A DNA stretch of 64,000 nt from Pseudomonas sp. NC02 (GTDB taxonomy: Bacteria; Pseudomonadota; Gammaproteobacteria; Pseudomonadales; Pseudomonadaceae): the NCBI RefSeq assembly GCF_002874965.1, contig NZ_CP025624.1, positions 5,642,001 through 5,706,000 of the forward strand, written 5' to 3'. This document shows positions 7,469 through 56,237 of this stretch, one piece after another. A program made the translations under genes and the position numbers. Under the pieces are notes generated by a model. That model worked only from the letters and a program-made list of their open reading frames with translations, did not search any database and was not told the DNA's origin. Positions within the stretch are counted from its first letter, which is position 1; each line of letters begins with the position of its first letter.

Positions 7469-7484
7469 ACACGCAACTCAATCT

Positions 7485-8045: not shown

Positions 8046-8096
8046 CTTGATCTCCCGCCAGTTTTCCCCCGCCACCAGTGGTGGCGGGGGAAACAC

Positions 8097-8618
8097 TTAC
8101 TGATAAGCCAAGGTGAAGTTGGTGACCGCGCTGAAATCACCAGGAACGATGTCGCCTGTCGCCTGGCCTTGTACGTAGGCGCCGAACTGCAGGGTGTTAT
8201 TACCGGCAACAATGGCCTGCGGAGTGGTTGGCACGCCCAGCTCAATCGCTTTGCCGCCGTGGGTCATCATGATGCCGATGCCGCCCGCGCTGCCGACCGT
8301 GCCGATGCCGCCAGGCACAACGCTGGACGGTGCACCGGTGAAGGTAGTGGTCACGGTGTTATCGGTGAGGCCAGACAGGTCGCACCCTTCAAGCTCGATC
8401 GCCACGGGGCGGGCGGTGGACTTGCCGCCGGATTGCAACTGATGCTTTGCAATAGCGCCAAGTGCAACTGACTGATCCACAGACTCAGGCTTGATAGAGC
8501 AAGCACCCGAATGGACCGAACCGGTAAATGTAATCGTCCCGTCCGCCGCATTAGCAACAGAGATCGAACCCGCCAACAGGCCGACAGTCAACAGCGCAGC
8601 TTTTACTTTAGTCTTCAT
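8097..8618 (-). CDS. major fimbrial subunit (FimA/PapA-type pilin)
   Basis: 173 aa: signal peptide MKTKVKAALLTVGLLAGSISVANA, then DGTITFTGSVHSGACSIKPES with the first Cys, the second in IELEGCDLSG, and C-terminal NFTLAYQ. It is Gly/Thr/Val rich like rod pilins. It is the promoter-proximal gene of the nine-gene operon running leftward to 949, with a long AT-rich leader, as expected for the most abundant subunit. The start was set at 8618, where the signal peptide begins; an in-frame ATG at 8648 adds ten unlikely residues. Confidence 0.88.
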   Translation of the reverse strand: MKTKVKAALLTVGLLAGSISVANAADGTITFTGSVHSGACSIKPESVDQSVALGAIAKHQLQSGGKSTARPVAIELEGCDLSGLTDNTVTTTFTGAPSSVVPGGIGTVGSAGGIGIMMTHGGKAIELGVPTTPQAIVAGNNTLQFGAYVQGQATGDIVPGDFSAVTNFTLAYQ

Positions 8619-8996
8619 TTGCAGAGGCTCACATGTATTAAAAATCAAAACGAAATCCTGGCTTAGTTACGCACAGGACTTAATTAACCCAGCGCCAGAA
8701 CAATTTCCCGAAGCAATGGAAATCGGATGCTTTCCAATTACTTGTATTGCAATTCAGGAGTTCGTTCGAGGCCGGGCAATTATCCATTTCGATTTTGAAT
8801 ATGAAAGCCGGTCGATTCGCTTATTCACGTAGCCTTGTCACACCAAGACACATAGGAAAATTATGGCACTTTGCCAAAACTTTTGAATCAACCGTAAGAA
8901 ACGGACTACATCAACTTAACGAGAATGATTTAGTGCAGAACAAGTCCGTAAGAATAGGATTACATATTATAAAAAACAACAGTAATTACTGGGGCA

Positions 8997-9016
8997 CGCC
9001 AACTAACAAGTTGGCG
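8997..9016. promoter_or_regulatory. perfect inverted repeat CGCCAAC-N6-GTTGGCG
   Basis: Two 7-base arms separated by TAACAA, in the gap between the pilus operon and the PadR-type regulator. It could be an operator or a small RNA hairpin; no T-run follows, so it is not a classical terminator. Confidence 0.4.
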
Positions 9017-9112
9017 AATATGTCGAAAGGGTCAGTGCGCTGATCGGCCCGTTTCGAGTCCCGTCTCACAAGACGCGAGATGACCGTTCGTCTGCCGAGG
9101 TTGCGGCGGCAA

Positions 9113-9126
9113 TAAGATATATCTTA
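9113..9126. promoter_or_regulatory. 14-bp palindrome TAAGATATATCTTA, candidate PadR/YqjI operator
   Basis: A perfect 14-base dyad 33 bp before the ATG of the PadR-family gene at 9159. PadR-type regulators bind AT-rich dyads and commonly repress their own promoters, so this is the natural candidate for autoregulation and for control of the coupled siderophore-interacting protein gene. The pairing with this regulator is inferred from position. Confidence 0.55.
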
Positions 9127-9158
9127 CGTTGTATCTAAACCAAACGAGAGCACCCGAA

Positions 9159-9707
9159 ATGAGAGACCATCATTCACACCGCGACCCCGGTGACAGCCGC
9201 GACGGCTTCGACAAACGTCCAGGCCGCGAGCGCGGCGGCCGTGGCCCACGGGTCTTCGCGCCCGGCGACCTGAAACTGCTGCTGCCGGCGCTGATCGCCG
9301 AACAGCCGTGCCATGGCTACGACCTGATTCGCCGGATCGAGACCCTGTTCGACGGCGCCTACAGCCCCAGCCCCGGCGTGATCTACCCCACGCTGACCTT
9401 TCTCGAAGAAAGCGAATTGATTACCGGCGACGCCGAAGACGGAAAAAAACGCTACACAATCACCGACGCCGGTCGTCTCTTCTTAAGCGAACAGGCGGTT
9501 GCCCTCGAAGGCATTCGCATGCGCATGGATGTGAGCAAACGTTCGCTGCGGGGCCAGGACCGTCCGCCGGAAATCCACGAGGCGGTGCATAACCTGCGCC
9601 ACGCCTTGCATTCGCACCACGGGCGCTGGAGCCCGGAAGAAATCGTTCGTGTCGCGGCGCTGCTCAACAGCACCGCCCAAGCCATTGCCGACGGGAAAGC
9701 TCAATGA
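9159..9707 (+). CDS. PadR-family regulator, YqjI-like
   Basis: 182 aa from ATG 9159. The N-terminus is His-rich (MRDHHSHRD) and Arg/Gly-rich up to residue ~35, a shortened version of the metal-binding tail of E. coli YqjI. A winged helix follows (FAPGDLKLLLPALIAEQPCHGYDLIRRIE…SPGVIYPTLTFLEE…KKRYTITDAGR) and then the C-terminal dimerisation helices. YqjI is a nickel-responsive repressor of the ferric reductase gene yqjH. Here the regulator is upstream of, and overlaps by ATGA with, the yqjH-like gene, whereas in E. coli the two are divergent. Metal response is inferred from the family. Confidence 0.8.
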   Translation: MRDHHSHRDPGDSRDGFDKRPGRERGGRGPRVFAPGDLKLLLPALIAEQPCHGYDLIRRIETLFDGAYSPSPGVIYPTLTFLEESELITGDAEDGKKRYTITDAGRLFLSEQAVALEGIRMRMDVSKRSLRGQDRPPEIHEAVHNLRHALHSHHGRWSPEEIVRVAALLNSTAQAIADGKAQ

Positions 9708-10453
9708 ATACCCAAGCCATCCACCGCGTGACCCACGAAATCAAACGCCGCCGCCTCGAAGTCCTGCGGGTGGTCGACATCACCCCGCGCATGCGCCGCA
9801 TCACCCTGGGCGGGCCGGAACTGGCGGGCTTTATCAGCCTGGGCAGTGACGATCACATCAAGCTGCTGTTCCCACAGAACGCCGCCGAACAAGCGGCGCT
9901 GGACAGCCCCGACTTCAACCTGCGCGGCGACGGCCCGCAACCCGCCATGCGCGATTACACCCCACGCCGGTACGACCTGGACATCGGCGAGCTGGACATC
10001 GACTTCGTGCTGCATGGCGATGGCCCTGCCTCCACCTGGGCCGAGCAGGCCAAGGTCGGTCAGCACCTGCACATCGGCGGGCCGCGTGGCTCGATGATCG
10101 TGCCGGATATCTTCGACAGCTACCTGTTGATCGGCGATGAAACCGCGATCCCGGCGATTGCCCGGCGCCTGGACGAATTGCCGGCGGGGCGCAAGGTATT
10201 GGCGGTGATCGAGATCGCCAATGCGGCGGAACAGCAGCCGCTGGCCAGCGCTGCCGAAGTGGAAGTGATCTGGGTGGTGCGCGGCCAGGATGACCTGCTC
10301 GAGACGGTGCAGAACCTGACGCTGCCGGGCGGTTCGCTGTACAGCTTTGTCGCCACCGAGAGCAAGCTCTCGCGCCAGGTGCGGCGGGTGCTGCTGGACA
10401 CGCACAACGTCAATGAGGCATTCCTCAAGGCCGTGGGTTACTGGCAACAGTGA
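9704..10453 (+). CDS. siderophore-interacting protein / NADPH-dependent ferric-chelate reductase (YqjH/ViuB family)
   Basis: 249 aa with an N-terminal FAD-binding barrel: RDYTPRRYD carries the R-x-Y-T/S flavin motif (~residues 85-93) and VLHGDGPASTWA follows the usual phosphate-binding segment. The C-terminal SIP lobe has LLIGDETAIPAIARRLDELP and ends in AVGYWQQ, the characteristic family tail. Such cytoplasmic enzymes release iron from imported ferric siderophores by reduction. The ATGA overlap with the PadR regulator shows translational coupling. The gene is followed immediately by a REPIN. Confidence 0.9.
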   Translation: MNTQAIHRVTHEIKRRRLEVLRVVDITPRMRRITLGGPELAGFISLGSDDHIKLLFPQNAAEQAALDSPDFNLRGDGPQPAMRDYTPRRYDLDIGELDIDFVLHGDGPASTWAEQAKVGQHLHIGGPRGSMIVPDIFDSYLLIGDETAIPAIARRLDELPAGRKVLAVIEIANAAEQQPLASAAEVEVIWVVRGQDDLLETVQNLTLPGGSLYSFVATESKLSRQVRRVLLDTHNVNEAFLKAVGYWQQ

Positions 10454-10456
10454 TCC

Positions 10457-10558
10457 CTGTAGGAGCGAGCTTGCTCGCGAAGAACCTGAGAGCGCCGCGT
10501 TAAACCAGACACACTGCGTTATCGTTAACGTTCTTCGCGAGCAATCTCGCTCCTACAG
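10457..10558. repeat. REPIN (two inverted REP sequences)
   Basis: Left REP 10457-10485 (CTGTAGGAGCGAGCTTGCTC…) and right REP 10530-10558 in opposite orientation enclose about 44 unique bases. It belongs to the TAGGAGCGAG subfamily and differs from the other REPINs of this window (GTGGGAGCGGG). The right REP is read through as the last codons of the membrane protein gene at 10525-11166. Confidence 0.9.
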
Positions 10559-11166
10559 ATTTTATCCAGCCCCACCACCCCCAGAGCAATCAGCACAAAC
10601 CCCACCAGAATCCCCCCGGCATTGATGAACACCTGTGGATAACCCAGGGTGTCCACGTTAATGAACGGGTACTGATACAGCCCCCACACATACCCGCGCA
10701 ACAACGCATAGGCGAAGTACACCACCGGGTAAATCACCCACAGCCCGATGTGTTTGAGGCGCAGGCTGCCCTTGGGCACGCACCACCACCAATACGCGAC
10801 AAACACCAACGGCATCACGTCGTGCAGCAACTCGTCCGCCACAAACTGCACCCCCGCAGGCTGCCACATGTGGCGCAACAACAGGCTGTAGGCGAGGCTG
10901 ACCACGACAATGCTCACGGCAATCCCGCTGCTGACTACGGGCCCGAGGAAGAACCGGCTCGCCGCGGTTGGCCGTTGCACCCACGCATGGGTCAACACCA
11001 CCGCCACCAGGGTGTTGGTGAGCACGGTGAAGAAGCTGAAGAAATTCACCAGGCCCGGCAACAGGCTGGCGCCATCGACCCAGCGGAAGTAGAAAATGAT
11101 GTACTGCTGCAGCGCCAGGCCGGCCCAACCGCCGAGGGCTGCGAGGCCGATAAGGTGACGTTTCAC
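10525..11166 (-). CDS. Pr6Pr-family integral membrane protein
   Basis: 213 aa with about six hydrophobic helices (for example GLAALGGWAGLALQQYIIFY, LVNFFSFFTVLTNTLVAVVL, VVSSGIAVSIVVVSLAYSLL) and the Pr6Pr-type segments NFFSFFTVLTNT, LLHDVMPLVF and WVIYPVVYFAYALLRG. The biochemical role of this family is unknown. A GTG start at 11166 lies one base after the stop of the VF530-like gene, so the two are probably co-transcribed. Its last ten residues, CRSEIAREER, are encoded by a REP sequence, which means a repeat inserted at or near the stop has extended the protein. Confidence 0.75.
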   Translation of the reverse strand: MKRHLIGLAALGGWAGLALQQYIIFYFRWVDGASLLPGLVNFFSFFTVLTNTLVAVVLTHAWVQRPTAASRFFLGPVVSSGIAVSIVVVSLAYSLLLRHMWQPAGVQFVADELLHDVMPLVFVAYWWWCVPKGSLRLKHIGLWVIYPVVYFAYALLRGYVWGLYQYPFINVDTLGYPQVFINAGGILVGFVLIALGVVGLDKICRSEIAREER

Positions 11167-11167
11167 C

Positions 11168-11404
11168 TCAGTCCTCGACCGGTCGCTTGGTGCGCATCAA
11201 CTTCACGTACAGGCCCTCGACCTTCTCCCGCGCCCACGGGGTCTTGCGCAGGAACGACAGGCTCGACTTGATGCTCGGGTCACTGGAAAAACAACGGATG
11301 TTGATGCGTTCGGCCAGGCCTTCCCATTGGTAATGCGCCACCAGCGCGGTGAGGACCTGTTCCAGGGTGACGCCGTGCAGTGGGTCTTTGTTTGTCGCGG
11401 TCAT
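11168..11404 (-). CDS. VF530 family small DNA-binding-like protein (DUF2132)
   Basis: 78 aa from ATG 11404 ([27 protein letters not shown]…). The core HGVTLE.ILT.LV..YGW..L...[26 protein letters not shown] is the VF530/DUF2132 signature: a small helical protein described structurally as DNA-binding-like, with no firmly known function. Longer in-frame starts run into the palindromic repeat and are unlikely. It is probably co-transcribed with the Pr6Pr membrane protein that begins directly after it. Confidence 0.85.
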
Positions 11405-11502
11405 GCCGGGCCTTTTGTGCAGAAAAGAAGAAAACGAAGCCGCGCACCTTAGCGGACGGGCCGTGCGGGTGGAAGCGTTGCCTTCACTATAGGCCACTGT
11501 TC

Positions 11503-11636
11503 GATCGTTCCCACGCCCTGCATGGGAATGCCGAATTGGACGCTCTGCGTCCCTCGGTCGACGCAAGTTTTAACCCTGCGCAATGGTGACGCAGAGCGTC
11601 ACGGCATGCATTTCCACGCAGAGCGTGGGAACGATC
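11503..11636. repeat. long palindromic repeat, copy A
   Basis: Begins GATCGTTCCCACGC and ends GCGTGGGAACGATC, with a second nested dyad (GGACGCTCTGCGTCC / GACGCAGAGCGTC). A shorter 107-bp copy is at 27190-27296; copy A has about 27 extra bases in the middle and an altered first arm (CACGCCCTGCATGGG instead of CACGCTCTGCGTGGG). It occupies the gap between the divergent VF530-like gene and znuD. As RNA it would fold into a large forked hairpin. Confidence 0.85.
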
Positions 11637-11695
11637 AGCGTGGGAGTGATCGAGCGGGGTTTGGGAAAGTTCCCCTTGGCAGGGAAAAAAGTGAT

Positions 11696-11708
11696 GTTAT
11701 ATTGTAAC
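11696..11708. promoter_or_regulatory. candidate Zur box GTTATATTGTAAC
   Basis: A near-perfect dyad (one mismatch) matching the gammaproteobacterial Zur consensus core GTTATA-T-TATAAC, 75 bp upstream of the start of the ZnuD-like receptor. In P. aeruginosa the znuD orthologue is repressed by Zur with zinc. The match of site and target makes zinc control likely. Confidence 0.75.
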
Positions 11709-11782
11709 GATAACTATCAAAGGGTATCGAATCCCTTACCGTTTTCAGCCTTCTCTTTTTGCCGTTTGCCAAGGAACGACCG

Positions 11783-13801
11783 ATGTCCCTCTCTTCTCTC
11801 TGGCGCCTCACCCCGCTGGCCGCCGCCCTGTTGATCACCTCCCAGGCCAACGCCCTGGAACTGCAACCCCAAGTCATCACCGGCAACCCGCTGGGCAGCG
11901 AAACCCTCGCCTCGCCCACCACCGTGCTCGAAGGCGATGACCTGACCCTGCAACAAAAAGGCAGCCTGGGTGAAACCCTGAACAAGCAGCCCGGTGTGTC
12001 GTCGTCGTACTTCGGCCCGGGGGCCAGCCGGCCGATCATTCGTGGCCAGGATGGTGACCGCATTCGCCTCCTGCGCAACGGAGTCGGCGCGCTGGATGCC
12101 TCGTCGTTGTCCTATGACCACGCGGTGCCGCTGGACCCGGTCAACGTCGACCGCATCGAAATCGTGCGCGGCCCGGCCGCCCTGCTCTACGGCGGCAGCG
12201 CCATCGGCGGCGTGGTCAATACCTTCGACAACCGCATCCCCACCGAAGCCATCGAAGGCATTCACGGTGCCGGTGAATTGCGCTACGGCGGCGCCGACAC
12301 CACCCGCAGCAGCGCCGGCAAACTGGAAGCCGGCAACGGCACCTTCGCCTTGCACCTGGACGCCAGCGCGCGGGAATTCAACGACCTGAAAATCCCCGGT
12401 TTTGCCCGCAGCCGTCATGCACCGCCAAGCGAAGACGGTGAAGGCAAGAACGGTCGCCTCGGCAACAGCGACGGACGCCAGGACGGTGGTGCAGTCGGCG
12501 GTTCCTACACTTGGGACGACGGTTACGCCGGGCTGTCCTACAGCAACTACGACAGCAACTACGGCTCCCCGGCCGAGCAGGACGTACGCATCCGCATGAA
12601 GCAGGATCACTACGCCTTTGCGTCCGAAATCCGCAACCTGCAAGGCCCTTTCACCTCGGTCAAACTCGACGCCGGCTATACCGACTACAAGCACATGGAA
12701 ATCGAAGGCGGCGAGACCGGCACCACCTTCAAGAACAAGGGCTACGAAGCCCGGGTGGAAGCGCGACACTTGCCGATCGGGCCGTTCAACGGCGTGGTGG
12801 GCGCCCAAGTCAGTCGCAATGAATTCTCGGCCCTGGGTGAAGAAGCCTTCGTGCCGCAGACCGATACCAACGCCGGCGCGCTGTTTATCCTCGAAGAAAT
12901 GCAGGCCTCCGAGCGCCTCAAGCTGAGCCTCGGCGGGCGCCTGGAACACACTAACGTCGACCCGGACGGCAAGGGCAACGCACGCTTCGTCAATGCCGAC
13001 AAATCCGCCGACTTCACCGCCGGCAGCCTGTCGTCCGGCGCGGTGTACACCCTCACGCCGATCTGGTCCCTGGCCGCCACCCTCGGCTACACCGAACGTG
13101 CCCCGACCTTCTACGAGCTGTATGCCAACGGCGCTCACGTCGCCACCGGCACCTATGAACTGGGCGACGCCAACCTGTCGAAAGAAAAAGCCGTGTCCAG
13201 CGACCTGGCACTGCGCTTCGACAACGGCACCCACAAGGGCAGCTTCGGCGTGTTCTACAGCCACTTCTCCAACTACATCGGCCTGCTGGGCAGCGGTCGC
13301 ACCTTGAATGACGAAGGCGAGGAAGACGCCGGCGGCATCCCTGAGTACAAATATTCCGGTGTGCGTGCGCGTTTCGCAGGCTTTGAAGCCCAGGATCACA
13401 TCAAGCTGGGGGAAGGTGCGTACGGCAAGTTTGCGCTGGAACTGTCGGGCGACTACACCCGTGCAACCAACCTGGACACGGGTGAAGCGTTGCCCCGCAT
13501 TGCGCCGTTGCGTTTGAACAGCGGCCTCTTGTGGGAACTGGATCGCTGGCAGGCGCGGATTGATGTTGAACACGCGGCGGGCCAGGGGCGGGTGCCGGAT
13601 AACGAAAGCGGTACCGACGGCTACACCACGTTGGGCGCCAGCGCCGGCTACCGCTTCAATGTCGGCGGCAGCCAGTGGCTGGCGTTCGTCAACGGCGAGA
13701 ACCTGACGAACCAGACCGTGCGCTACGCCAGTTCGATCCTGCGGGACATCGCCCCGGCGCCGGGTCGAAGTGTGCAGGTCGGGTTGCGCACCACCTTCTA
13801 A
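11783..13801 (+). CDS. znuD: TonB-dependent zinc receptor ZnuD
   Basis: 672 aa from ATG 11783 (AAGGAA ribosome site). Signal peptide to ANALE, then a plug domain with GNPLGSETLASPTTVLEGDDL, ASRPIIRGQDGDRIRLLRNGV and VDRIEIVRGPAALLYGGSAIGGVVN, then the 22-strand barrel ending in SVQVGLRTTF with the terminal Phe. The acidic/His insert around HAPPSEDGEGKNG and the overall wording match ZnuD of Neisseria, Acinetobacter and Pseudomonas. It imports zinc across the outer membrane with TonB energy. A Zur box precedes it and a REPIN follows. Confidence 0.9.
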   Translation: MSLSSLWRLTPLAAALLITSQANALELQPQVITGNPLGSETLASPTTVLEGDDLTLQQKGSLGETLNKQPGVSSSYFGPGASRPIIRGQDGDRIRLLRNGVGALDASSLSYDHAVPLDPVNVDRIEIVRGPAALLYGGSAIGGVVNTFDNRIPTEAIEGIHGAGELRYGGADTTRSSAGKLEAGNGTFALHLDASAREFNDLKIPGFARSRHAPPSEDGEGKNGRLGNSDGRQDGGAVGGSYTWDDGYAGLSYSNYDSNYGSPAEQDVRIRMKQDHYAFASEIRNLQGPFTSVKLDAGYTDYKHMEIEGGETGTTFKNKGYEARVEARHLPIGPFNGVVGAQVSRNEFSALGEEAFVPQTDTNAGALFILEEMQASERLKLSLGGRLEHTNVDPDGKGNARFVNADKSADFTAGSLSSGAVYTLTPIWSLAATLGYTERAPTFYELYANGAHVATGTYELGDANLSKEKAVSSDLALRFDNGTHKGSFGVFYSHFSNYIGLLGSGRTLNDEGEEDAGGIPEYKYSGVRARFAGFEAQDHIKLGEGAYGKFALELSGDYTRATNLDTGEALPRIAPLRLNSGLLWELDRWQARIDVEHAAGQGRVPDNESGTDGYTTLGASAGYRFNVGGSQWLAFVNGENLTNQTVRYASSILRDIAPAPGRSVQVGLRTTF

Positions 13802-46462: not shown

Positions 46463-47098
46463 TCAGGGCACCATTCCGCTGCTGCGAGCATAGTGGAACA
46501 AATCCACATCGGTGGAGATACACAGCCGGTTCATCGCGGTACTTTTCTGTTTGCTGATGGTGGAGATGCTGCGATTGACCCGCGCGGCAATCTGGCTGAC
46601 GGTCATGCCGCTGGCCAGCATGCGCACCACTTCGCGTTCCTTGCCCGACAGTTGCGGCGGTTGTGATTGATCGCCCGTGCCGGCCTGCACCAACTGGGTC
46701 CGCAGGGACTCGCTGACGAAGGTCTTGCCCTCGCAGACTTCCTTGATGGCCGTGGGCAACTCCTTGGCCGACGCACTCTTGGCGACAATGCCTCGGGCGC
46801 CCTCGGCGAACGAGGCACGCAGGGTGGCGATATTGGCGAACATCGTCACCAGGATCACCGGCACCCCGGGGTATTGGCGTTGCAACAAGCCCAACAACAC
46901 ATAGCCGTCAGCCTGCTGCCCGCCCGGCATGGCGAAGTCCGTCACCAGCACATCGCAAGGGGTGCTGCCCAGTACCCGCAGCAGCTCATCCGGGCCGTTG
47001 GCCTCACCGACCACCTTGCACTTGCCATTGGCCTCGATCACCACCTTCTGCCCGATCCGAACAATGGGATGATCGTCAGCAATAATTACGCGAAGCAT
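46463..47098 (-). CDS. RcsB/NarL-type response regulator
   Basis: 211 aa from ATG 47098. Receiver domain with acidic pocket IIADDHPIV and phospho-acceptor Asp54 (LVTDFAMPGG), Thr and Lys near VILVTMFA and VAKSAS. The C-terminal LuxR HTH is LSGKEREVVRMLASGMTVSQIAARVNRSISTISKQKSTAMNRLCI, of the RcsB/RocA wording (SKQK..AM..L). No cognate kinase is adjacent. In P. aeruginosa, RocA1/RcsB-like regulators control cup pilus genes; with the receiver-Hpt gene next to it and a pilus locus beyond, a similar job is plausible. Confidence 0.85.
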   Translation of the reverse strand: MLRVIIADDHPIVRIGQKVVIEANGKCKVVGEANGPDELLRVLGSTPCDVLVTDFAMPGGQQADGYVLLGLLQRQYPGVPVILVTMFANIATLRASFAEGARGIVAKSASAKELPTAIKEVCEGKTFVSESLRTQLVQAGTGDQSQPPQLSGKEREVVRMLASGMTVSQIAARVNRSISTISKQKSTAMNRLCISTDVDLFHYARSSGMVP

Positions 47099-47298
47099 AG
47101 AAATCCATGAGTGATGGCAAATTGATTTGCGCAAAATAACCCTGTCCGTCCCGGGCAACAACCGCCCACCTGGGAGCGGTTTTCAATGGCGTCCCGTGTT
47201 CTTAAGCGGGTGATTTTTTACCTACAACAAAAAAGGAAACCACCTACAAACTAAGCCCACAGACAGAGGTAATACCCCCTACAGACTCGCTGAAAATG

Positions 47299-48120
47299 TC
47301 ATAAATCTGTCAAATAGCGCAGGTACACCAGCAGGTCCTGGTCGAACCGCTGCAATGCCCGCCTGTTGCACCGGATCCCGTGCTTGCGCACCTGTTCGAT
47401 CAACTCCCCCGCACAGCGATCCAGCTCCGTCTCGCCAAAAAACGCCAGGCTTCCCGCCAGGCGATGCAGGCAGTCGACCAATGCATGCGGGTCGACGATG
47501 CGGCAAGCCTGTACCAGGCCTGCGTAATCAGCCTCGGCCTCGCGCACCAGGGTGCGCAACATCTGGTTCACCACCTGTTCATCGCCAAATGTCCTGATCA
47601 GTTCGGCACGAGTCGGCCAGTGCGCCCCGGCGCAGGCTGTGGCAGGCGGGTTCGTACTGGCGCCCGGCGGCTGTGGCAGCCACTGCTCCAGCACCCCGCG
47701 CAATTGTTCCAGGGTCAGCGGCTTGAGCAGCCAGGCATCCATGCCGGCCTCAAGGCAGCGGCGCGCATCGTCCGCAGAGAGTTTGGCGGTCAAGGCAATG
47801 ATCGGCACACGAGGGCGGCTGTGTACGGCCTCTCGCCGCCTGATCTCACGAGCCATGCTATAGCCATCCAGCACCGGCATGCGGCAATCGCTGATCACCA
47901 GGTCGAAATGCCGCAGGGCGATGGCGGTCAACGCGGCCTGCCCGTTGCACACCAGTTCGTGATCGACTTCGAATTTTTGCAGGAACCAGCCCATCAAGGC
48001 GCGATAGGCCTGATGGTCCTCGACGATCAGCACGCTCAGGTGCTTCCAGTGAACAGGAGGACTGCGCCATGGCACCGTTTGCTGCCTGGGGGCGTCGTCA
48101 GCAAACACGCTTGGCATCAT
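47299..48120 (-). CDS. receiver-Hpt phosphorelay protein
   Basis: 273 aa from ATG 48120 (CGAGG upstream). Receiver domain residues ~28-150 with VLIVEDHQ, phospho-acceptor Asp78 (LVISDCRMPVLDGYS), ALTAK and LLKPL. After a Pro/Ala linker, an Hpt domain carries CLHRLAGSLAFFGETEL with phospho-His219. There is no kinase core or output domain: this is the receiver-Hpt tail of an EvgS/BvgS-like hybrid sensor as a free protein. It could relay phosphate to the RcsB-like regulator at 46463-47098. It lies divergent from the DUF1120 pilus locus. Confidence 0.82.
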   Translation of the reverse strand: MMPSVFADDAPRQQTVPWRSPPVHWKHLSVLIVEDHQAYRALMGWFLQKFEVDHELVCNGQAALTAIALRHFDLVISDCRMPVLDGYSMAREIRRREAVHSRPRVPIIALTAKLSADDARRCLEAGMDAWLLKPLTLEQLRGVLEQWLPQPPGASTNPPATACAGAHWPTRAELIRTFGDEQVVNQMLRTLVREAEADYAGLVQACRIVDPHALVDCLHRLAGSLAFFGETELDRCAGELIEQVRKHGIRCNRRALQRFDQDLLVYLRYLTDL

Positions 48121-48538
48121 GGCCACCTCGATATCGGCGCCGACCTGCCAGGGCCATCAGACGGCCCTGGCATATCGTCTAGTGAGGGTGCGCTTGACGG
48201 TGATCCTTAACCCATCCGCCTGGCACCCATTACCGAATCAAGCTATCCACATGAATACCACTCTTGCGATACAAGAACTACGAAAAGGCAGTTTTTCCTA
48301 CAGCTCCGCCCACCTATTCCGACTTGACGCAGGCGAGCTAGAGGGATAGCGGATTGTCGTAATTCTTGTATTTCCCCTCCTCCCCCCCCGGCGCTAAATT
48401 GCGCCCCACCCCAAGAGGGCAACCCGCCAACTCACCTGGCGGCCAACTATCCGAACTGACCCGACGCCCAACCGCGCCTCTTTCTGCGCTGCGGTGAGCT
48501 GCACCCGTCAGTTGATCCAACACCGAGACAATACAACC
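48121..48538. promoter_or_regulatory. divergent control region of the DUF1120 pilus locus
   Basis: 418 bp between the receiver-Hpt gene and the first DUF1120 gene with no convincing gene. It should carry the promoters of both sides. A C-tract (CCCCTCCTCCCCCCCCGG, ~48365-48383) stands out; short homopolymer tracts in pilus leaders can be phase-variable, but this is only a possibility. Confidence 0.45.
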
Positions 48539-49168
48539 ATGAACAAGCATCTGATCGCCGTCGCCAGCGCCCTGCTGATCACTGGCACCGCCCCCGCCTT
48601 CGCCGCCAGCACCGTGGACCTGACAGTCAAGGGCATCATCACCCCGAATGCCTGCACGCCGAGCCTGTCCAGTGGCGGGGTCATCGACCACGGCAAGATG
48701 TCGGCCAAGGACTTGAACGCCACCCAGATCACCCTGTTGCCGAAAGTCACGCTGCAAATGACCGTGACCTGCGATGCGCCGGTGATCTTCGCCCTCAAGG
48801 CGACCGACAACCGTATTGGCTCCGGCAGCGGCAGCGGCTTCGGGCTGGGCTTTATCAACGGCACGCAAAAGCTGGGTTCCTATAGCTTGACCCTTGGCGC
48901 CAACGGTAGCCCGCCCCAGGCCGACGGCGAAACCGTGCAAGCCATCGGGTCTTTCGACAATGGCGTCACCTGGGAGCGTTGGAACAGCTTTGAAACCGGC
49001 ACCTATCTCTCGGTCGCCACCCTGGCAGACGCCAGCACCCCGCGTGCCACCCAGCAACTGGTCACCCCCGTGGCCTACAGCGGCTACATCAACCGCACCG
49101 ACGGCCTGGACCTGAGCAACGAAGTCAATATCGACGGCTCGGCCACCATTGAAGTGCTCTACCTGTAA
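48539..49168 (+). CDS. DUF1120 fimbrial-type subunit 1
   Basis: 209 aa from ATG 48539. Signal peptide MNKHLIAVASALLITGTAPAFA, then the DUF1120 start STVDLTVKGIITPNACTPSLSSGGVIDHGKMSAKDLN with the first Cys, the second in QMTVTCDAP and DNRIGSGSGSG; it ends IEVLYL. The paired Cys and a penultimate Tyr at the C-terminus are as in pilins, so it should be a chaperone-usher substrate. It is very similar to the third gene (49874), a recent duplication. First gene of the locus, hence candidate major subunit. Confidence 0.82.
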   Translation: MNKHLIAVASALLITGTAPAFAASTVDLTVKGIITPNACTPSLSSGGVIDHGKMSAKDLNATQITLLPKVTLQMTVTCDAPVIFALKATDNRIGSGSGSGFGLGFINGTQKLGSYSLTLGANGSPPQADGETVQAIGSFDNGVTWERWNSFETGTYLSVATLADASTPRATQQLVTPVAYSGYINRTDGLDLSNEVNIDGSATIEVLYL

Positions 49169-49209
49169 CCCACCTTCGCCCCTGACCTGCAACCAAAAGG
49201 TGCTGCTCG

Positions 49210-49830
49210 ATGATGAATTCCTCACCCGCTGTCTTTCTCGCCACGTTGCTGCTGGCCCCCACCGTACTGGCCACCAGCAGTACCGACTTCGCCGTCACGG
49301 GCACCATCACGCCGAATGCCTGTGAACCCATGCTCTCCGGCGGAGGCGTGGTGGATTACGGAAAAATGCCGGCCAAGGAACTCAACACCGACAGCCCGAC
49401 CTCACTGCAGCCGCAGACCATGCAAATGGAAGTCCTGTGTGAAGCGCCAACGTTCATCGCGCTGAGCACGATCGATAACCGCGCCGGCACTTCGGCAATT
49501 AACGACTACTGGCATGGCCTGGGGCTGACGGACAGTGGCGAAAAACTTGGCGCCACCGCATTCGGCCTGCTCAACCCGGTCGCGGACGGCGTCACGGTCA
49601 AGACGATCAACTCGACCGATGGCGGGGTGACCTGGCTCCCGTCGATTTACCTGGGCCACTACACCCAAACCTCGGTCGCCACCAACGGCGGTGCGAACAC
49701 CCCGATTGCGATACGGCAATTCAGTGCCGACCTGCGCGTGTACACGATGGTCGACGGCACCGACCGCCTGACCGTGCTCGACGAAGTGCCGCTGGACGGC
49801 CATGCCACCGTGCAACTGAAGTACCTGTAA
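49210..49830 (+). CDS. DUF1120 fimbrial-type subunit 2
   Basis: 206 aa. AAAAGGTG precedes a double ATG (49210/49213). Signal peptide to TVLATSS, then FAVTGTITPNACEPMLSGGGVVDYGKMPAKELN, second Cys in QMEVLCEAPTF, AL(S/K)TIDNRAGT and the C-terminal VQLKYL. Same architecture as its neighbours, with more divergence in the middle. 41 bp after subunit 1, so co-transcribed. Confidence 0.8.
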   Translation: MMNSSPAVFLATLLLAPTVLATSSTDFAVTGTITPNACEPMLSGGGVVDYGKMPAKELNTDSPTSLQPQTMQMEVLCEAPTFIALSTIDNRAGTSAINDYWHGLGLTDSGEKLGATAFGLLNPVADGVTVKTINSTDGGVTWLPSIYLGHYTQTSVATNGGANTPIAIRQFSADLRVYTMVDGTDRLTVLDEVPLDGHATVQLKYL

Positions 49831-49873
49831 CCCTTTATTCAACCGGCCCCACTCGAAAGGAAACGTGTGCCCC

Positions 49874-50503
49874 ATGAAACTTACGCTCAATGCCCTGGCC
49901 ACCGCGCTGTTGCTCAGCACCAGCGCCTCTGCCCTGGCGGCGTCCACCGTCGACCTGACTGTCAAAGGGGTGATTACCCCCAACGCCTGCACACCTGGCC
50001 TGTCCGGCGGAGGGATGGTGGACTACGGCAAGATCTCCGCCAAAGACCTGAACCTCACGACCCCCAAACAACTGCCACGCACCACCTTGCAACTGACCAT
50101 CACCTGCGACGGCGGCACCCTGTTTGCCGTCAAGGGCACCGACAACCGCGCCGGGTCCAACTCCAGCGGCGGCACCTACGGCCTGGGGTTGATCAACGGT
50201 ACGCAGAAGCTGGGGGCCTACGACCTGATGCTGAATAACGCAGTCGCCGACTCTGTCGCCGTCACGGTGCTGGAATCCGGGGATAACGGCACGACCTGGG
50301 CAGAGTCGGCGGACGCGATCCTGCCACCCAGCGCATTGGCGGCTTTCGGCGATAGAACCTCGGGCACCTGGCTGCCGGTGCCGATCCAGCAAGTCGTCAG
50401 CGACCTGGTGGTGTACGCGCAGATCGCCCGGGCCGACAGCCTGGACCTGAGCGATGAACACCCGATCGACGGCTCGGCCACGCTGGAAGTGAAGTACCTG
50501 TAA
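49874..50503 (+). CDS. DUF1120 fimbrial-type subunit 3
   Basis: 209 aa from ATG 49874 (AAAGGAAA upstream; an in-frame ATG at 49865 is possible). Signal peptide MKLTLNALATALLLSTSASALA, then STVDLTVKGVITPNACTPGLSGGGMVDYGKISAKDLN, second Cys in QLTITCDGG, GTDNRAGSNSSGGTYGLGLINGTQKLG, C-terminal LEVKYL. Closest relative is subunit 1. Confidence 0.82.
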   Translation: MKLTLNALATALLLSTSASALAASTVDLTVKGVITPNACTPGLSGGGMVDYGKISAKDLNLTTPKQLPRTTLQLTITCDGGTLFAVKGTDNRAGSNSSGGTYGLGLINGTQKLGAYDLMLNNAVADSVAVTVLESGDNGTTWAESADAILPPSALAAFGDRTSGTWLPVPIQQVVSDLVVYAQIARADSLDLSDEHPIDGSATLEVKYL

Positions 50504-50564
50504 ACCCGCGGCCTCGTCGTTCGCGGCGAGGCGCCTTACTTGCACCGAACACATTGAAGACCGA

Positions 50565-51194
50565 ATGATGAACAGAACCCTACGCCTGTGCACGGCGCTG
50601 TTATTGCTCAACACCGGCTCTAGCGTGTTTGCCAGCACCGCCACCGAGATGACCCTGTCGGGCCTGGTCACCCCCAGTTCCTGCACCATCGCACTCTCCG
50701 GCAGCGGCATCATCGACCACGGCACCATCCCTGCCCATCTCCTCAACCAGGTGGCTCCCACCCCGTTGCCCACCCAATGGCTGGAGGTAGAGATCCACTG
50801 CAGCGGCCCCTTGTTGTTTGGCCTGATTGGCCTGGACAGCCGCGAAGATTCGTCCGCCGCACCGGACACTACCTACGGCCTGGGGAGAAACCCCATCGCG
50901 CCCGCGGAGCAGTTGGGTTACGTCGACCTGGCGTTCGAAGCGGCGCAAGGAGACGGCCAGGCCATGCAGTCACTTGTGTCAAACCCCGAAGGCGGCCTTT
51001 GGGCTCCCCAACCGGCCATCCACCCCAAGACACTCATGGGCTTCGCCCGTCCCGGCCGACCGTTTCCGGAACCCATCGTCACCCTGACCACCCGGATCCG
51101 CGCACAGACCACCATCCACCCGGCGAACCGTCTGACCCTCAGGCAAGACGTTCCCCTCGATGGCTCACTGGTCCTGGATTTGCGTTACCTCTAA
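50565..51194 (+). CDS. DUF1120 fimbrial-type subunit 4
   Basis: 209 aa. Signal peptide to GSSVFAST, EMTLSGLVTPSSCTIALSGSGIIDHGTIPAHLLN with the first Cys, second in VEIHCSGPLLF, C-terminal VLDLRYL. More diverged than subunits 1-3: the PNACTP motif is PSSCTI. 61 bp after subunit 3 and just before the chaperone. Confidence 0.8.
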   Translation: MMNRTLRLCTALLLLNTGSSVFASTATEMTLSGLVTPSSCTIALSGSGIIDHGTIPAHLLNQVAPTPLPTQWLEVEIHCSGPLLFGLIGLDSREDSSAAPDTTYGLGRNPIAPAEQLGYVDLAFEAAQGDGQAMQSLVSNPEGGLWAPQPAIHPKTLMGFARPGRPFPEPIVTLTTRIRAQTTIHPANRLTLRQDVPLDGSLVLDLRYL

Positions 51195-51222
51195 GCCCTG
51201 TGATCATTTTAGGAACTGCGTC

Positions 51223-51921
51223 ATGAAGACCTATCCAACCTTGCTGGCCCTGGGCTGGCTGCTGAGCACCCAGGCGTTTGCCGACGGCATGGTGCCCGAC
51301 ACCTCGGTGGTGATCGTCAACGAGGCCGACGGTGAAGCCTCGGTGTCGGTGACCAACACCGACGGCAAACTGGCCCTGCTGCACGTCACCCTGGAAGACA
51401 TTCCGGAAGACACCGAATCGCTGCTGTTCGTCACCCCGCCCCTGTCCCGGGTCGAGGCCGACAAAAGCCAGCTGGTGCGCTTTATCCTGCGCAACCCCAC
51501 GCCCCTGAAAACCCAACGCCTGAAGCGGGTGATCTTCGAAGGCATGCCCAAGGACCGTGACGCCGCCCAGGCTGGCCATGCGCGGGTGGGCGTGACCGTG
51601 CGCCAGAACCTGCCGGTGATCATTCATCCCAAGGGCCTGGCGCCGAACCGCACACCCTGGACCGGGCTGACCTGGTCGTTGAACGCCGGTCACCTGAACG
51701 TCGCCAACCCCACGCCTTACGTGGTGCGCCTGGCCCAGGAGCTGCAATTGCTGCCCGGCAAGCAGAGCCTGGTGCTGCCGCGCACTTATGTGTTGCCCGG
51801 CGAAACCCTGCGGCTCAGCACGCCCCACACCGCCACGGCCGTACGCCTGCAACCGGCCACCGTGTACGGCTTTGCCGTCGCCGCCTATGAAGCACCGATA
51901 ACCGCCGCAAACGCTGAATAA
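51223..51921 (+). CDS. periplasmic pilus chaperone, divergent type
   Basis: 232 aa from ATG 51223 (AGGAACTGCG). Signal peptide to QAFADG, then two immunoglobulin-like domains with VSVTNTDGKLALLHVTLED, RFILRNPTP, RVIFEGMPKD and VTVRQNLPVIIHPKGL. It has the PapD-like fold, but strand A reads TSVVIV where PapD has the anchoring Arg (TRVIF), and strand G reads NLPVIIHP where PapD has the anchoring Lys (RIKLFYRP). It serves the DUF1120 subunits and the usher that follows. Confidence 0.85.
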   Translation: MKTYPTLLALGWLLSTQAFADGMVPDTSVVIVNEADGEASVSVTNTDGKLALLHVTLEDIPEDTESLLFVTPPLSRVEADKSQLVRFILRNPTPLKTQRLKRVIFEGMPKDRDAAQAGHARVGVTVRQNLPVIIHPKGLAPNRTPWTGLTWSLNAGHLNVANPTPYVVRLAQELQLLPGKQSLVLPRTYVLPGETLRLSTPHTATAVRLQPATVYGFAVAAYEAPITAANAE

Positions 51922-51996
51922 CGAAGTGACAGCCCTGTGACTGTCACCGGGAAGCCCGCCAACCGTTGCCGGCTTCCATAACCTGAGTGCCTTTAC

Positions 51997-54432
51997 GTGA
52001 ACACAGTAACCACTGACCCGGCTGGCGAAGCCGTGCCCGACTGTCCTTTACGCCCCGCCCGGATGCGGGCCGCGCTGCCACTGACCATGGCGTTGCTGTC
52101 GGCCGATGCCTGGGGCGACGCCTTCGACGCGCAAACCCTGCACCAGCGCGGTATCGACCCGGAACTGGCCTACCTGTTGCTGGACGCACCGCGCTACACC
52201 AGCGGCCGCCACGCCGTGAGCCTGACGGTGAACGGCCAGCGCCGTGGCCGCCTTGATGTTCAGTTCGACAGCCAGGGGGCGCTGTGCTTTGACCGCCCGC
52301 TGCTGGACGCCGCCGACCTGGTGATACCCGCGCCGCTGGGCGACAGCACCTGCCATGACTTCCTCGGCGAATACCCGCAAACCGTGGTGGAGCAAGACCC
52401 CGCCAGCCTGAGCGTGAGCCTGATGGTGCCCACCGATGCCCTGCGCCCGCGCCAACGTGAGCTGTCCGGTTATGAAACCGGAGGGTTCGCCGGCTTGCTC
52501 AACTACGACCTCACCGGTTTGTACAACCGTTATGGCGACGACGCCAGCCGCTTCGGCTCGGCCAATACCGAGCTGGGCTTCAACGCCGGCGACTGGATCG
52601 TGCGCAGCCGCCAGGTACAGACCTGGCAAGACTCCCGGTCCCGCAGTACCCACCTGGAAGCCTATGCCCAGCGCACCTTCGCCGAGCAGCAGGCGGTGTT
52701 GCAGGCCGGGCAGATCAACCTCTACAACCCGGTGCTGTCGTCCGCGCAGATCACCGGCATGCAGCTGTTTACCGAACAGGCCCTGCAGGACCAGGAACAG
52801 GGCTCGACCATCAGCGGCATCGCCAACAGCCCGGCCCAGGTCGAGGTGCGCCAGAACGGCGCGCTGATTCACTCCACGGTGGTGCCGGCCGGGCCGTTCT
52901 CGCTGACCGACGTGAGGCGCCTGAACACACGCTCGGACGTTGAAGTGACGGTCAAGGAAAGCACCGGCGAAGAGCGGCGCTTCACGGTGCCGGCGGCGAT
53001 GCTCGGCATCGGCTTGCCAGCCCCGGGTTACTCGTTGGGGGCGGGCCGGGTGCGCAATATCGGCGCTACACGGGGCGACGATCCATGGGTAATCAGCGGC
53101 GGCTGGAGCGGTGCGTTGAACCCGCGCCTGAGCCTGGGGGCCGGCGCGCTTGCCGCCGAAGACTACCGTGCCACGGGTGCCAGCCTCGGCCTGTTGCCGT
53201 GGCCAGACGGCCAGGTACAACTGTCGACCCAGATTGCCGATGCCCAACGCCTGGGTGAACGCGGCGTACAGACCGACCTGAGCCTGTCCCAGCGCCTGGG
53301 CCGACAATGGTCGATCACCGCCGGCGCCTCCCACCGCACCATGGGCTACCGGGAGCTGGAAGACGCCGCCTACTACGACTCACGGGACGACGAAGGTCGC
53401 CTCACCCGCTATCGCGACCAGCAGAGCCTGGCCCTGGGCTGGGCCCATCCATGGCTGGGTGCCTTCAATGCCGGCCTGTCGCGCACCACCACGTTCAACG
53501 GCGAAAACAGCAGCCGTGCCCTGGCCTCATGGGGCACCAGCGTGCGCGGCGTGTCGCTGTCGGCCAGTGCCGAGTGGCAGGTCAGCGGCCGGCAGAATAA
53601 CGAGAACGCGGTGTACCTGAACCTGAGCGTGCCACTGGGTGAGAACCGGCGTGGGCGCTCCTGGGTGCGCAACTCCGGTGGCGAGCATCGCATCGGCCTG
53701 GGGGTGAACGAGCAGGTCAACGATCAACTCAGTTACCGGGTCAGCGCCGAGCACGACAGCCGCGACCAACAAGTGGAATCCACCCTCGGCGTGTCCTATC
53801 TGCCGCGCTATGCACAACTGGACATGAACTACAGCCGCTCTGACGCCGAGCGCTCCAGCTACCAGGGCGGTGTGCGCGGTGCAGTGGTGGCCCACAGCGG
53901 TGGCGTGACCTTCTCGCCTTATCCGGTGCGCGAGACCTTTGCGCTGGTGTCTGTCGGCGATATGGCCGGGGTCAAGCTCACCACGCCCAGCGGCCCGGTG
54001 TGGACCGACTTCCAGGGCCAGGCCGTGGTACCGCAGGTGTCCGCCTACGGGCGCAGCCCCGTGGAAGTGCAAACCCAGTCGCTGCCGCGCAACGCCGATA
54101 TCAGCAACGGCCTGGCCGTCATCAGCGCCGGGCGCGGTGCGGTCGACCGCGTGGAATTCGGCGTGGCCCTGACCCGTCGTGCCTTGCTCACAGTGACCAC
54201 CGACCACGGCACGCCGCTGCCCCGTGGCGCCACGGTGAGTACCGTCGATGGCGAGTTCGTGACCCTGGTGCAGGAAGGCGGCCAGGTGTTCCTGCCGAAC
54301 GTACTGGACCCACGCCCCCTGTGGGTCAAGGCACCGGGCATGAGCCGCTGTGAACTGCAGGTTGAACTCGCGGAAAAAGCCGACCCGCAGGTGTATTTCG
54401 AAACCGCCCCGGCCCGCTGTGTGATGCCATGA
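51997..54432 (+). CDS. outer-membrane usher of the DUF1120 pilus system
   Basis: 811 aa. Usher features: FDAQTLHQRGIDPELAYLLLDAPRYTSGRHAVSLTVNGQRRG (N-terminal binding domain), YNPVLSSAQITGMQLFTEQALQ and SPAQVEVRQNGALIHSTVVPAGPFSLTDV (barrel and plug), and C-terminal domains with MSRCELQVELA and TAPARCVMP. It is well separated from the PapC-like usher of this window. A GTG start at 51997 is listed; ATG 52063 (MRAALPLTMALLSADAWGDA) gives a more typical signal peptide. Its end overlaps the next gene's first in-frame ATG. Confidence 0.88.
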   Translation: MNTVTTDPAGEAVPDCPLRPARMRAALPLTMALLSADAWGDAFDAQTLHQRGIDPELAYLLLDAPRYTSGRHAVSLTVNGQRRGRLDVQFDSQGALCFDRPLLDAADLVIPAPLGDSTCHDFLGEYPQTVVEQDPASLSVSLMVPTDALRPRQRELSGYETGGFAGLLNYDLTGLYNRYGDDASRFGSANTELGFNAGDWIVRSRQVQTWQDSRSRSTHLEAYAQRTFAEQQAVLQAGQINLYNPVLSSAQITGMQLFTEQALQDQEQGSTISGIANSPAQVEVRQNGALIHSTVVPAGPFSLTDVRRLNTRSDVEVTVKESTGEERRFTVPAAMLGIGLPAPGYSLGAGRVRNIGATRGDDPWVISGGWSGALNPRLSLGAGALAAEDYRATGASLGLLPWPDGQVQLSTQIADAQRLGERGVQTDLSLSQRLGRQWSITAGASHRTMGYRELEDAAYYDSRDDEGRLTRYRDQQSLALGWAHPWLGAFNAGLSRTTTFNGENSSRALASWGTSVRGVSLSASAEWQVSGRQNNENAVYLNLSVPLGENRRGRSWVRNSGGEHRIGLGVNEQVNDQLSYRVSAEHDSRDQQVESTLGVSYLPRYAQLDMNYSRSDAERSSYQGGVRGAVVAHSGGVTFSPYPVRETFALVSVGDMAGVKLTTPSGPVWTDFQGQAVVPQVSAYGRSPVEVQTQSLPRNADISNGLAVISAGRGAVDRVEFGVALTRRALLTVTTDHGTPLPRGATVSTVDGEFVTLVQEGGQVFLPNVLDPRPLWVKAPGMSRCELQVELAEKADPQVYFETAPARCVMP

Positions 54433-54443
54433 GGAAGACTGTG

Positions 54444-55571
54444 ATGAAGCGATTGTTACTGCTGGGATTGGCCCTGGGCGCCATCGTCCAGGGCCGGGCG
54501 CACGCCGACGAATGCCAACTGACCCTAAGCCAGTCGCGCCTGGATTTCGGCGTGATGAACCGCGCCGTGCAGCGCAACCCCGGCGCAGAAATCCTGCTGG
54601 GAGAACGCCGCCTGAGCCTCAACCTGAACTGCCCGACGCCCACCGATATGCACGTGTTCTACCGAGCCCTGGCCGCGACCGCCGAGCGCTACCGCTTTAC
54701 CGAGCGTGGCAGTTACCGCGTGCACATCGGCGATGCGGTACTCGACGGCCAGGCTGTTGAACTGGGGTTGACCAGCGGGCAAGGCCAGGCGCCCAGTGCC
54801 AGGGGCAGGACACTCGACTGGCGGCCCGACCAGGCCATCGTACCGTTGCGCGACGGTGCGCCGACCACCGGCAGCAGCTTCTCGGCGCAATTGCTGGTCA
54901 ATGCCTGGGCGCAGGCCGACGCCCTGCAAGTGCGCGACGCGGTGACCTGGGAAGCCAGCGGCTTGATCGACGCCGTCGCCAGCGGCCGCGCACGGGAGTT
55001 GTCGCTGCAAGCCGGCTTCGCTCCGGCGGCCTGCGAGACCACGCTGTCCAACGGCGGCATCATCGACTTTGGCCGTATGTGGTCCAGGAGCCTTAACACC
55101 GACAAGGAAACCGGGCTGGTCTCCCGCAGCCTGCTGCTGAGTATCGGCTGCGACGGCCCGACTCATTTCGCCTTGCGCATGCATGACAACCGCAAAGGCT
55201 CGGCCACCGGCGGCATCGACGAAACCGCCTACGGCCTGGGAGTGGACGACAGCCGTAATAAAATCGGCCGGTACTTCCTCTATTTCGACCCCTTCGACCT
55301 GCGCGCCGATGCCCTGCCCCAGGTATATCGCACCGACTCCACCACTGGCGGCGTGGCCTGGAGCAGTTCCAGCGCCTACCCCATTCCCATCGGCAGCAGC
55401 AGTTTGCTCGGCTTTACCGCTCTACCCGGCAGCAATGCCGGCCCGACCGCGATCCAGAACCTGAGTGGGCAGATCAGCGTGCGCGCCGTCCTGTCCCCCA
55501 TGAACAGCCTGGACCTGCGTACGGAAGTACTGCTCGACGGTTCGGGCACGATTGAAATCATCTACCTCTGA
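54444..55571 (+). CDS. two-domain DUF1120 protein, candidate tip adhesin
   Basis: 375 aa from ATG 54444, chosen because GAGGA lies eight bases upstream; ATG 54429 would overlap the usher by ATGA. After the signal (…GRAHADE) residues ~25-185 form a separate domain (CQLTLSQSRLDFGVMNRAVQ…LNLNCPTP) resembling a lectin- or pilin-like beta fold. A DUF1120 domain with CETTLSNGGIIDFGRMWSRSLN, IGCDGPTHFALRMHDNRKG and the C-terminal IEIIYL follows. A receptor-binding head fused to a subunit domain is the usual adhesin plan. Directly after the usher. Confidence 0.78.
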   Translation: MKRLLLLGLALGAIVQGRAHADECQLTLSQSRLDFGVMNRAVQRNPGAEILLGERRLSLNLNCPTPTDMHVFYRALAATAERYRFTERGSYRVHIGDAVLDGQAVELGLTSGQGQAPSARGRTLDWRPDQAIVPLRDGAPTTGSSFSAQLLVNAWAQADALQVRDAVTWEASGLIDAVASGRARELSLQAGFAPAACETTLSNGGIIDFGRMWSRSLNTDKETGLVSRSLLLSIGCDGPTHFALRMHDNRKGSATGGIDETAYGLGVDDSRNKIGRYFLYFDPFDLRADALPQVYRTDSTTGGVAWSSSSAYPIPIGSSSLLGFTALPGSNAGPTAIQNLSGQISVRAVLSPMNSLDLRTEVLLDGSGTIEIIYL

Positions 55572-55586
55572 TCAAGGAGTATGGTC

Positions 55587-56237
55587 ATGCACCTACGCCA
55601 GCTTTCTCTCGCAACACTTGCCCTGCTGACCCTCAGCAGCGGTGCCACGGCAGCCTCCAGTGTCGAACTCGGCGTCACCGGCTTGCTCACTCCCAGTGCC
55701 TGTACACCGGCGCTGTCGAGCAACGGGCTGATCGACTACGGCAAGATTTCCCAACAGGAGTTGAACATTGATCGCGGCAAACGCCTGCCGGTGCGCTACC
55801 TGAGCGTGACCATCAACTGCGAGGCAGCGACTCGCTACGCCCTGCGCATGAGCGACAACCGCGACGGCACCGCCAACGTCAACAGCGAAATCTACTACGG
55901 GCTGGGACTGGACCCGAGCGGCAACAAGATCGGGCTGTACTCCCTGACCTTCGACCCCAAACAGACGGTGATCGACAGCCTGCCGGAGGTTTACGGCACC
56001 GAGTCCACCAGCGGCGGGATCGCCTGGCGCACCGCCAACAGCAACCCGATCGACATCGGTTCGCGCAGCTTTCTCGGCTTTACCGACACCGTCGGCAGCA
56101 CCAGCGGGCCGACGGCCTTCCAGACGCTGAGCAGCCTGGTCAGGGTCGATACGGTGATCGCTGCCAAGAACAATCTCGACCTCAGCAGCGACGTGCATAT
56201 CGATGGTTCCAGCACTATGGAAGTGCTGTACCTCTAG
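55587..56237 (+). CDS. DUF1120 fimbrial-type subunit 6
   Basis: 216 aa from ATG 55587 (AAGGAG seven bases before it; ATG 55581 lies too close to that site). Signal peptide to SSGATAAS, then VELGVTGLLTPSACTPALSSNGLIDYGKISQQELN, second Cys in VTINCEAATRYALRMSDNRDG and C-terminal MEVLYL. It is most similar to the DUF1120 half of the preceding gene (both contain DPSGNKIG/DDSRNKIG, PQVY/PEVYGT(E/D)ST and SxFLGFT), so the pair arose by duplication. It may be the adaptor for the tip protein. Confidence 0.8.
   Translation: MHLRQLSLATLALLTLSSGATAASSVELGVTGLLTPSACTPALSSNGLIDYGKISQQELNIDRGKRLPVRYLSVTINCEAATRYALRMSDNRDGTANVNSEIYYGLGLDPSGNKIGLYSLTFDPKQTVIDSLPEVYGTESTSGGIAWRTANSNPIDIGSRSFLGFTDTVGSTSGPTAFQTLSSLVRVDTVIAAKNNLDLSSDVHIDGSSTMEVLYL

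Follow-up and report, generated by a model that had tools for sequence, protein, structure and literature searches.

A beta-clade chaperone-usher fimbrial locus of Pseudomonas sp. NC02 with a fused YhcE-type and DUF1120 protein as predicted tip subunit

The operon at 48539-56237 on the forward strand of the window, i.e., the 64,000-nucleotide stretch C1:5642001-5706000 of the 6.89-Mb genome of Pseudomonas sp. NC02, raises the question of which kind of chaperone-usher fibre it encodes and which of its products stands at the tip. Its genes are arranged in the order s1-s2-s3-s4-chaperone-usher-F-s6, with s for DUF1120 pilins and F for a two-domain protein of 380 amino acids. The first-pass annotation had described six DUF1120 proteins, one chaperone, and one usher in a single rightward unit, in agreement with the Pfam matches across the region (DUF1120; PapD_N and PapD_C; Usher, PapC_N, and PapC_C), and the open reading frame coordinates bear out its account of the gene order and of short gaps and overlaps. 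The spacing is 41, 43, 61, 28, and 75 bases, followed by a 4-base overlap of usher and F and a final gap of 9 bases; the 75-base gap between chaperone and usher would grow to 141 if the usher started at the ATG at 52063. Since six of the seven DUF1120 matches of the genome fall within this operon, chance is no issue for the cluster; the seventh belongs to another, smaller locus around C1:6,633,000, and the genome contains five ushers in total.

All six subunits, F included, match PF06551 (DUF1120) with 31 to 62 bits at a Pfam cut-off of 21 bits. Subunit 1 (48539-49168, 209 amino acids, 58 bits) has a signal peptide, the donor-strand-like segment ASTVDLTVKGIITPNAC, and YL at its end, and is followed by subunit 2 (49210-49830, 206 amino acids, 61.9 bits), subunit 3 (49874-50503, 209 amino acids from the ATG, 62 bits), and subunit 4 (50565-51194, 31.2 bits), which is the most divergent one with 30-37% identity to the others. 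Subunit 6 (55581-56237, 218 amino acids, 59.2 bits) is encoded behind F. The C-terminal Tyr-Leu reported earlier is present in all six and is the counterpart of the penultimate Tyr in classical pilins. The core motif said to be common to all subunits does not extend to subunit 4 (C-T-I-A-L-S-G-S-G) and F (C-E-T-T-L). A complete, non-polymerising fold had been named as the outcome that would speak against a fibre; the AlphaFold2 model of subunit 3, the only single-domain subunit modelled (pLDDT 88.1), instead predicts a pilin-type fold with a free N-terminal segment outside it, and its PDB matches are pilins. The subunit profile, when compared with PDB sequences, retrieved sialidases only, via an Asp-box-like stretch (best E 1.3e-4). 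This motif, S-x-D-x-G-x-T-W as in the BNR repeats of sialidases, is located at residues 135-142 of subunit 3 (50276-50299) and occurs in other DUF1120 subunits as well; its strict form is carried by 196 of the 476 free subunits and by none of the 76 fused proteins, and 0.16% of shuffled subunit sequences contain it.

The locus is a beta-clade chaperone-usher fimbria, because its usher groups with E. coli YhcD, its chaperone lacks the classical anchor residues, and its subunits are DUF1120 proteins. The beta clade is a category of the 2007 classification by Nuccio and Baumler, to which PMC5216030, PMC3373541, and PMC3559732 refer. The usher (51997-54432; Usher 4.6e-95) has its best NCBIfam match in NF011832 with 664 bits, which is below the cut-off of 723 (next best model, 210; E. 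coli YhcD on NF011832, 1273). In an 89-row tree it is united with YhcD in a clade of 78 rows (SH-aLRT 99) that excludes FimD, YbgQ, HtrE, YehB, and EcpC, and the neighbourhood of this clade is unsure because of long branches (EcpC, L113, and L121). A 55-row tree again placed these five references, the outgroup of a comparison in which named kappa or sigma ushers are absent from both trees, apart from all beta rows. FimD, YehB, and YbgQ are labelled gamma1, gamma4, and pi, respectively, in the accessible portion of PMC3032704, and EcpC is assigned to the alternative pathway in that of PMC4654587. As the first-pass annotation had it, the operon is separate from a second usher locus in the window, whose usher (4856-7468, reverse strand) falls in a different clade. 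This other locus (4107-7468, reverse strand) has an usher that groups with YbgQ, pi in the consulted section of PMC3032704, rather than with FimD, and that passes NCBIfam PRK15284 with 1008 bits at a cut-off of 972.

The PapD-type periplasmic chaperone (51223-51921, 232 amino acids; PapD_N 2.9e-19; NCBIfam NF007392 252 bits, cut-off 183) is likewise of the beta type. According to the accessible text of PMC4654587, beta chaperones are devoid of the classical subunit-anchoring residues and carry non-classical analogues, namely two Arg and a Tyr. Arg102 and Arg169 of the window chaperone align with the anchor residues Arg89 and Arg148 of EcpB; both Arg were present in 18 of 18 beta chaperone rows, and the 10 classical rows show the reverse pattern. 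Tyr215 is a candidate for the anchor Tyr, in a column where EcpB is gapped and classical chaperones often have Tyr. At the columns of the classical R8 and K112, the window chaperone has Val29 and Pro131, so that both residues typical of classical (gamma/pi) chaperones are replaced; neither occurred in any of the 18 beta rows, and both were found in 10 of 10 classical rows. Archaic (sigma, Csu-like) pili are characterised by the Spore-coat-U (SCPU) subunit domain, for which the eight proteins of the operon had no Pfam match at E <= 1. DUF1120 structural subunits, a feature linked to the beta clade, account for six of six subunits here and also for E. coli GltF (155 bits) and YhcF (161 bits). 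Overall, the poorly described pilus class proposed at first is indeed a poorly described chaperone/usher fibre locus, but not a class of its own: it belongs to the beta clade, of which E. coli gltF-yhcADEF is a member.

The remaining peculiarity is F (54429-55571). The operon had been regarded as built wholly from DUF1120 subunits, which is true insofar as each of the six matches PF06551, but the first half of F is not DUF1120 by Pfam and matches PRK15301. The feature that had been missed is that F is, as judged from sequence, a YhcE-type domain joined to a DUF1120 pilin. The N-terminal domain (residues 29-182; 54513-54974; PRK15301 2.3e-19) shares homology with YhcE/PRK15301, to which no function is assigned, and represents a pilin homologue without an N-terminal donor strand. 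It is followed by a linker (residues 187-198; 54987-55022), delimited by alignment ranges, that is a strand in the predicted model, and by the C-terminal DUF1120 pilin domain (55023-55568; PF06551 53.4 bits) with 47% identity to subunit 6, its nearest relative, and 34-35% to the other subunits. Sequence and model both predict that the start of F lacks a donor strand, as in the N-terminal domain of a two-domain tip adhesin, with the pilin domain present at the C terminus. Proteins consisting of the N-type domain alone (standalone N proteins) exist as well: NCBIfam PRK15301, one of the models PRK15301-15304 that presumably derive from stj, recognises YhcE (1.1e-14) and a standalone N protein of the same genome (1.2e-13), and a comparison of the YhcE-type family with DUF1120 by hhalign yielded 98.2% (E 5e-14). 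A search of PDB sequences with the two-domain profile returned nothing fimbrial, and six N-domain peptide patterns had zero matches in viral contigs.

The reading of the first-pass annotation had also depended on DUF1120 genes lying beside chaperone and usher genes in other genomes, and such loci were found. Within the genus, 52 of 149 genomes had DUF1120 matches, and within the phylum 8 of 398 did, five of the latter belonging to the same genus, own genome included. The 56 regions taken for comparison (from 45 of the 52 DUF1120-positive genus genomes and from others) and 80 named loci (the best 80 of 216 relatives) provided, together with the window and E. coli NCTC86, 135 beta-usher rows after six usher rows had been left out as not beta. 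For the N-domain counts, the profile was cleaned of DUF1120 subunits, and YhcE was taken out of its alignment ahead of the YhcE test, with a slight influence on gaps remaining. The gene after the usher encodes an F-type protein in 82 rows, a standalone N protein in 48, and another product in 5, i.e., 130 of 135 have an N-type domain, the rows not being independent because L094 contributes two loci and some genomes occur twice under different handles (e.g., L067 and L140). Named loci contributed 48 fused, 30 standalone, and 2 other cases, unnamed ones 33, 17, and 3; the window is fused and NCTC86 standalone. Among the five others (L075, L088, L098, L139, and L152), L152 has a 417-amino-acid open reading frame missed by the rule, and L139 a split usher and then N. 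L075 (G023, 6277-13698) is a beta locus of the order s-s-C-N-s-U-s-s, in which the N gene precedes the usher. L113 (G324, 9585-13456), among the six rows left out, combines a DUF1120 gene, the order s-U-C without an N gene, and a chaperone with beta-type residues with a very divergent, long-branched usher (17% to YhcD), and may represent an additional relative of the beta clade. In L085 (G051:C2:301000-320900), which gave no row, chaperone and usher are present as short fragments only, and the beta locus is apparently decayed.

The comparison of fused and standalone forms bears on how F is built. An additional C-terminal strand is absent from the standalone N form, and most members have none at the start either; none of 19 standalone homologues, nor YhcE, reaches the end of the linker strand of F. 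The linker itself keeps the DUF1120 donor-strand pattern and is predicted from the model to be the retained donor strand of the pilin, completing the first domain in cis. F might conversely be a conventional two-domain adhesin of the FimH or CupB6 type, with a lectin first domain that has its own last strand and is only distantly homologous to the standalone N proteins, but this is unlikely in view of the donor-strand pattern in the linker, the early stop of the standalone proteins, and the fact that their family shares the gene position and the NCBIfam model with the first domain of F. In addition, the position seven residues ahead of the first Cys is occupied by Gly in 277 of the 283 free subunits (out of 476) that fit the motif pattern, and by Ala (56) or Val (1) in the 57 fused linkers (out of 76) that do so. 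Transferable donor strands typically have a Gly at such a position (P4), and its loss in the fused linkers is in keeping with a strand that does not undergo exchange.

A second alternative concerns the position in the fibre, as the N protein could be an initiator, adaptor, or base subunit of beta fibres without a specialised tip. In accordance with this, no typical adhesin is reported for beta fimbriae in the accessible parts of PMC3373541 and PMC5216030, and the penultimate Tyr is missing from the standalone N proteins. However, a subunit that is unable to donate a strand cannot be internal. The base subunit PapH has a donor strand and cannot accept one, and the N protein shows the opposite pattern, which makes this alternative even less probable than the lectin-type adhesin.

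We regard it as likely that the operon encodes a beta-clade pilus with the product of 54429-55571 as its tip and the first domain of this protein completed in cis by the linker. In the periplasm, the chaperone would cap the exported subunits, which would be threaded through the usher, and the N-terminal donor strand of each subunit would fill the groove of the subunit ahead, as donor-strand exchange is suggested by family, fold, and sequence. Without an N-terminal donor strand, F could only accept and would take the tip position: its YhcE-type pilin fold would be closed by the kept donor strand of the fused DUF1120 pilin, whose open groove would accept the next subunit. Elsewhere in beta loci, a separate N protein would receive the donor strand of a DUF1120 subunit in trans. 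The pilus may function in attachment or biofilm formation, perhaps under a divergent response regulator. YhcE-type proteins would thus be the tips said to be missing from beta fimbriae, and the fused form a two-domain tip protein. We lean slightly towards the broader view that, beyond supplying these tips, the Pseudomonas fused form records the origin of two-domain tip adhesins, with a one-domain tip pilin joined to the next subunit, the trans donor strand turned into a linker, and the Gly of the transferable strand lost.

The direction of this change can be judged from the ushers and their loci. Fused ushers constitute one clade in both trees (36 rows, SH-aLRT 99, in the 89-row tree; 14 rows, SH-aLRT 100, in the 55-row tree), which is nested inside the standalone ones in the 89-row tree. 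In the 55-row test, a topology uniting all standalone rows was not rejected (AU p 0.389), so that fusion is favoured over fission but not proven. The yhcE and yhcF genes of E. coli NCTC86 overlap by four bases, an arrangement that makes fusion easy. Among the best 80 of 216 relatives, standalone named loci come from Enterobacterales, Burkholderiales, and Pseudomonas and fused ones from Pseudomonas only; unnamed fused loci are confined to the genus of the window, and the closest named homologues of F (87%) and s3 (88%) belong to Pseudomonas graminis. The fused loci share a genomic site: counting the window, 78 of the 82 have an MFS homologue of the gene after the operon, compared with 0 of 49 standalone-N loci.

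A decayed or silent operon is a highly improbable explanation. Between 48000 and 57600 no sigma-70-like promoter match was present (mean of shuffles, 1.2), which is weak evidence in Pseudomonas, but all eight reading frames are open, the MFS neighbour is conserved as stated above, and many homologues have the conserved Cys, Gly, and Tyr. Two divergent neighbours on the reverse strand are candidate regulators of the operon, i.e., a LuxR-type response regulator (46463-47161; Response_reg and GerE) and, as a putative phosphorelay partner, a receiver and Hpt protein (47299-48126; Response_reg and Hpt). With the window counted, homologues of the former (E <= 1e-15) were found in 75 and those of the latter in 46 of the 82 fused-type loci, and each was found in 9 of the 49 standalone-type loci, counts that are perhaps inflated by the general similarity among response regulators. 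In six fused-type loci (L073, L091, L100, L103, L106, and L117), one or two extra DUF1120 genes are located upstream on the opposite strand, near response regulator genes.

With respect to known systems, the locus resembles E. coli Yhc (gltF-yhcA-yhcD-yhcE-yhcF), labelled beta in the accessible parts of PMC5216030 and PMC3032704, in its chaperone/usher order, DUF1120 subunits, YhcE-type gene directly after the usher, and beta usher clade. It differs in having four subunits ahead of the chaperone and in the fused protein, whereas YhcE (181 amino acids) and YhcF are encoded by separate, overlapping genes. In K-12, yhcE is broken by IS5, and it is intact in NCTC86; the first yhcE fragment occurs in 1133 of 5426 complete E. 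coli genomes with an identity of at least 99%. The control set gave no DUF1120 match, which a strain without the locus may explain. Salmonella Stj, likened here by description only, is a beta fimbria too; the accessible text of PMC3373541 states that it is the only one of Salmonella, that there is no structural or functional information on it, and that its clade has no typical adhesin gene. In the consulted part of PMC5216030, beta pili were described in 2017 as never characterised, YhcE as without predictable function, and the view, taken from the 2007 review, was reported that tip subunits are lacking. The CupB6 tip adhesin of P. aeruginosa (PDB 5cyl) has 12% identity to F, and kinship is not supported by sequence. 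YhcE-type proteins as tips, or the fused form, were not found in the accessible portion of the open-licence literature, a scope outside which the per-gene function labels of adhesiomeR (PMC11184843) fall. The beta class itself is already known, and the tip role of YhcE-type proteins and the fused form are the new part, although novelty is not proven. Pseudomonas sp. NC02 itself offers a further comparison in its other beta locus (C1:6628701-6633274; L115 8702-13275), which has a DUF1120 subunit, a beta chaperone, and an usher like the operon described here, but is arranged in a short form, s-C-U-N, where N is a standalone protein of 206 amino acids; its usher open reading frame is overlong (908 amino acids), with the start not settled. 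If the gene after the usher encodes the tip, YhcE gains a role, the claim is directly testable in laboratory strains of Pseudomonas, and the same tip is available for comparison with and without the fusion, even inside a single genome.
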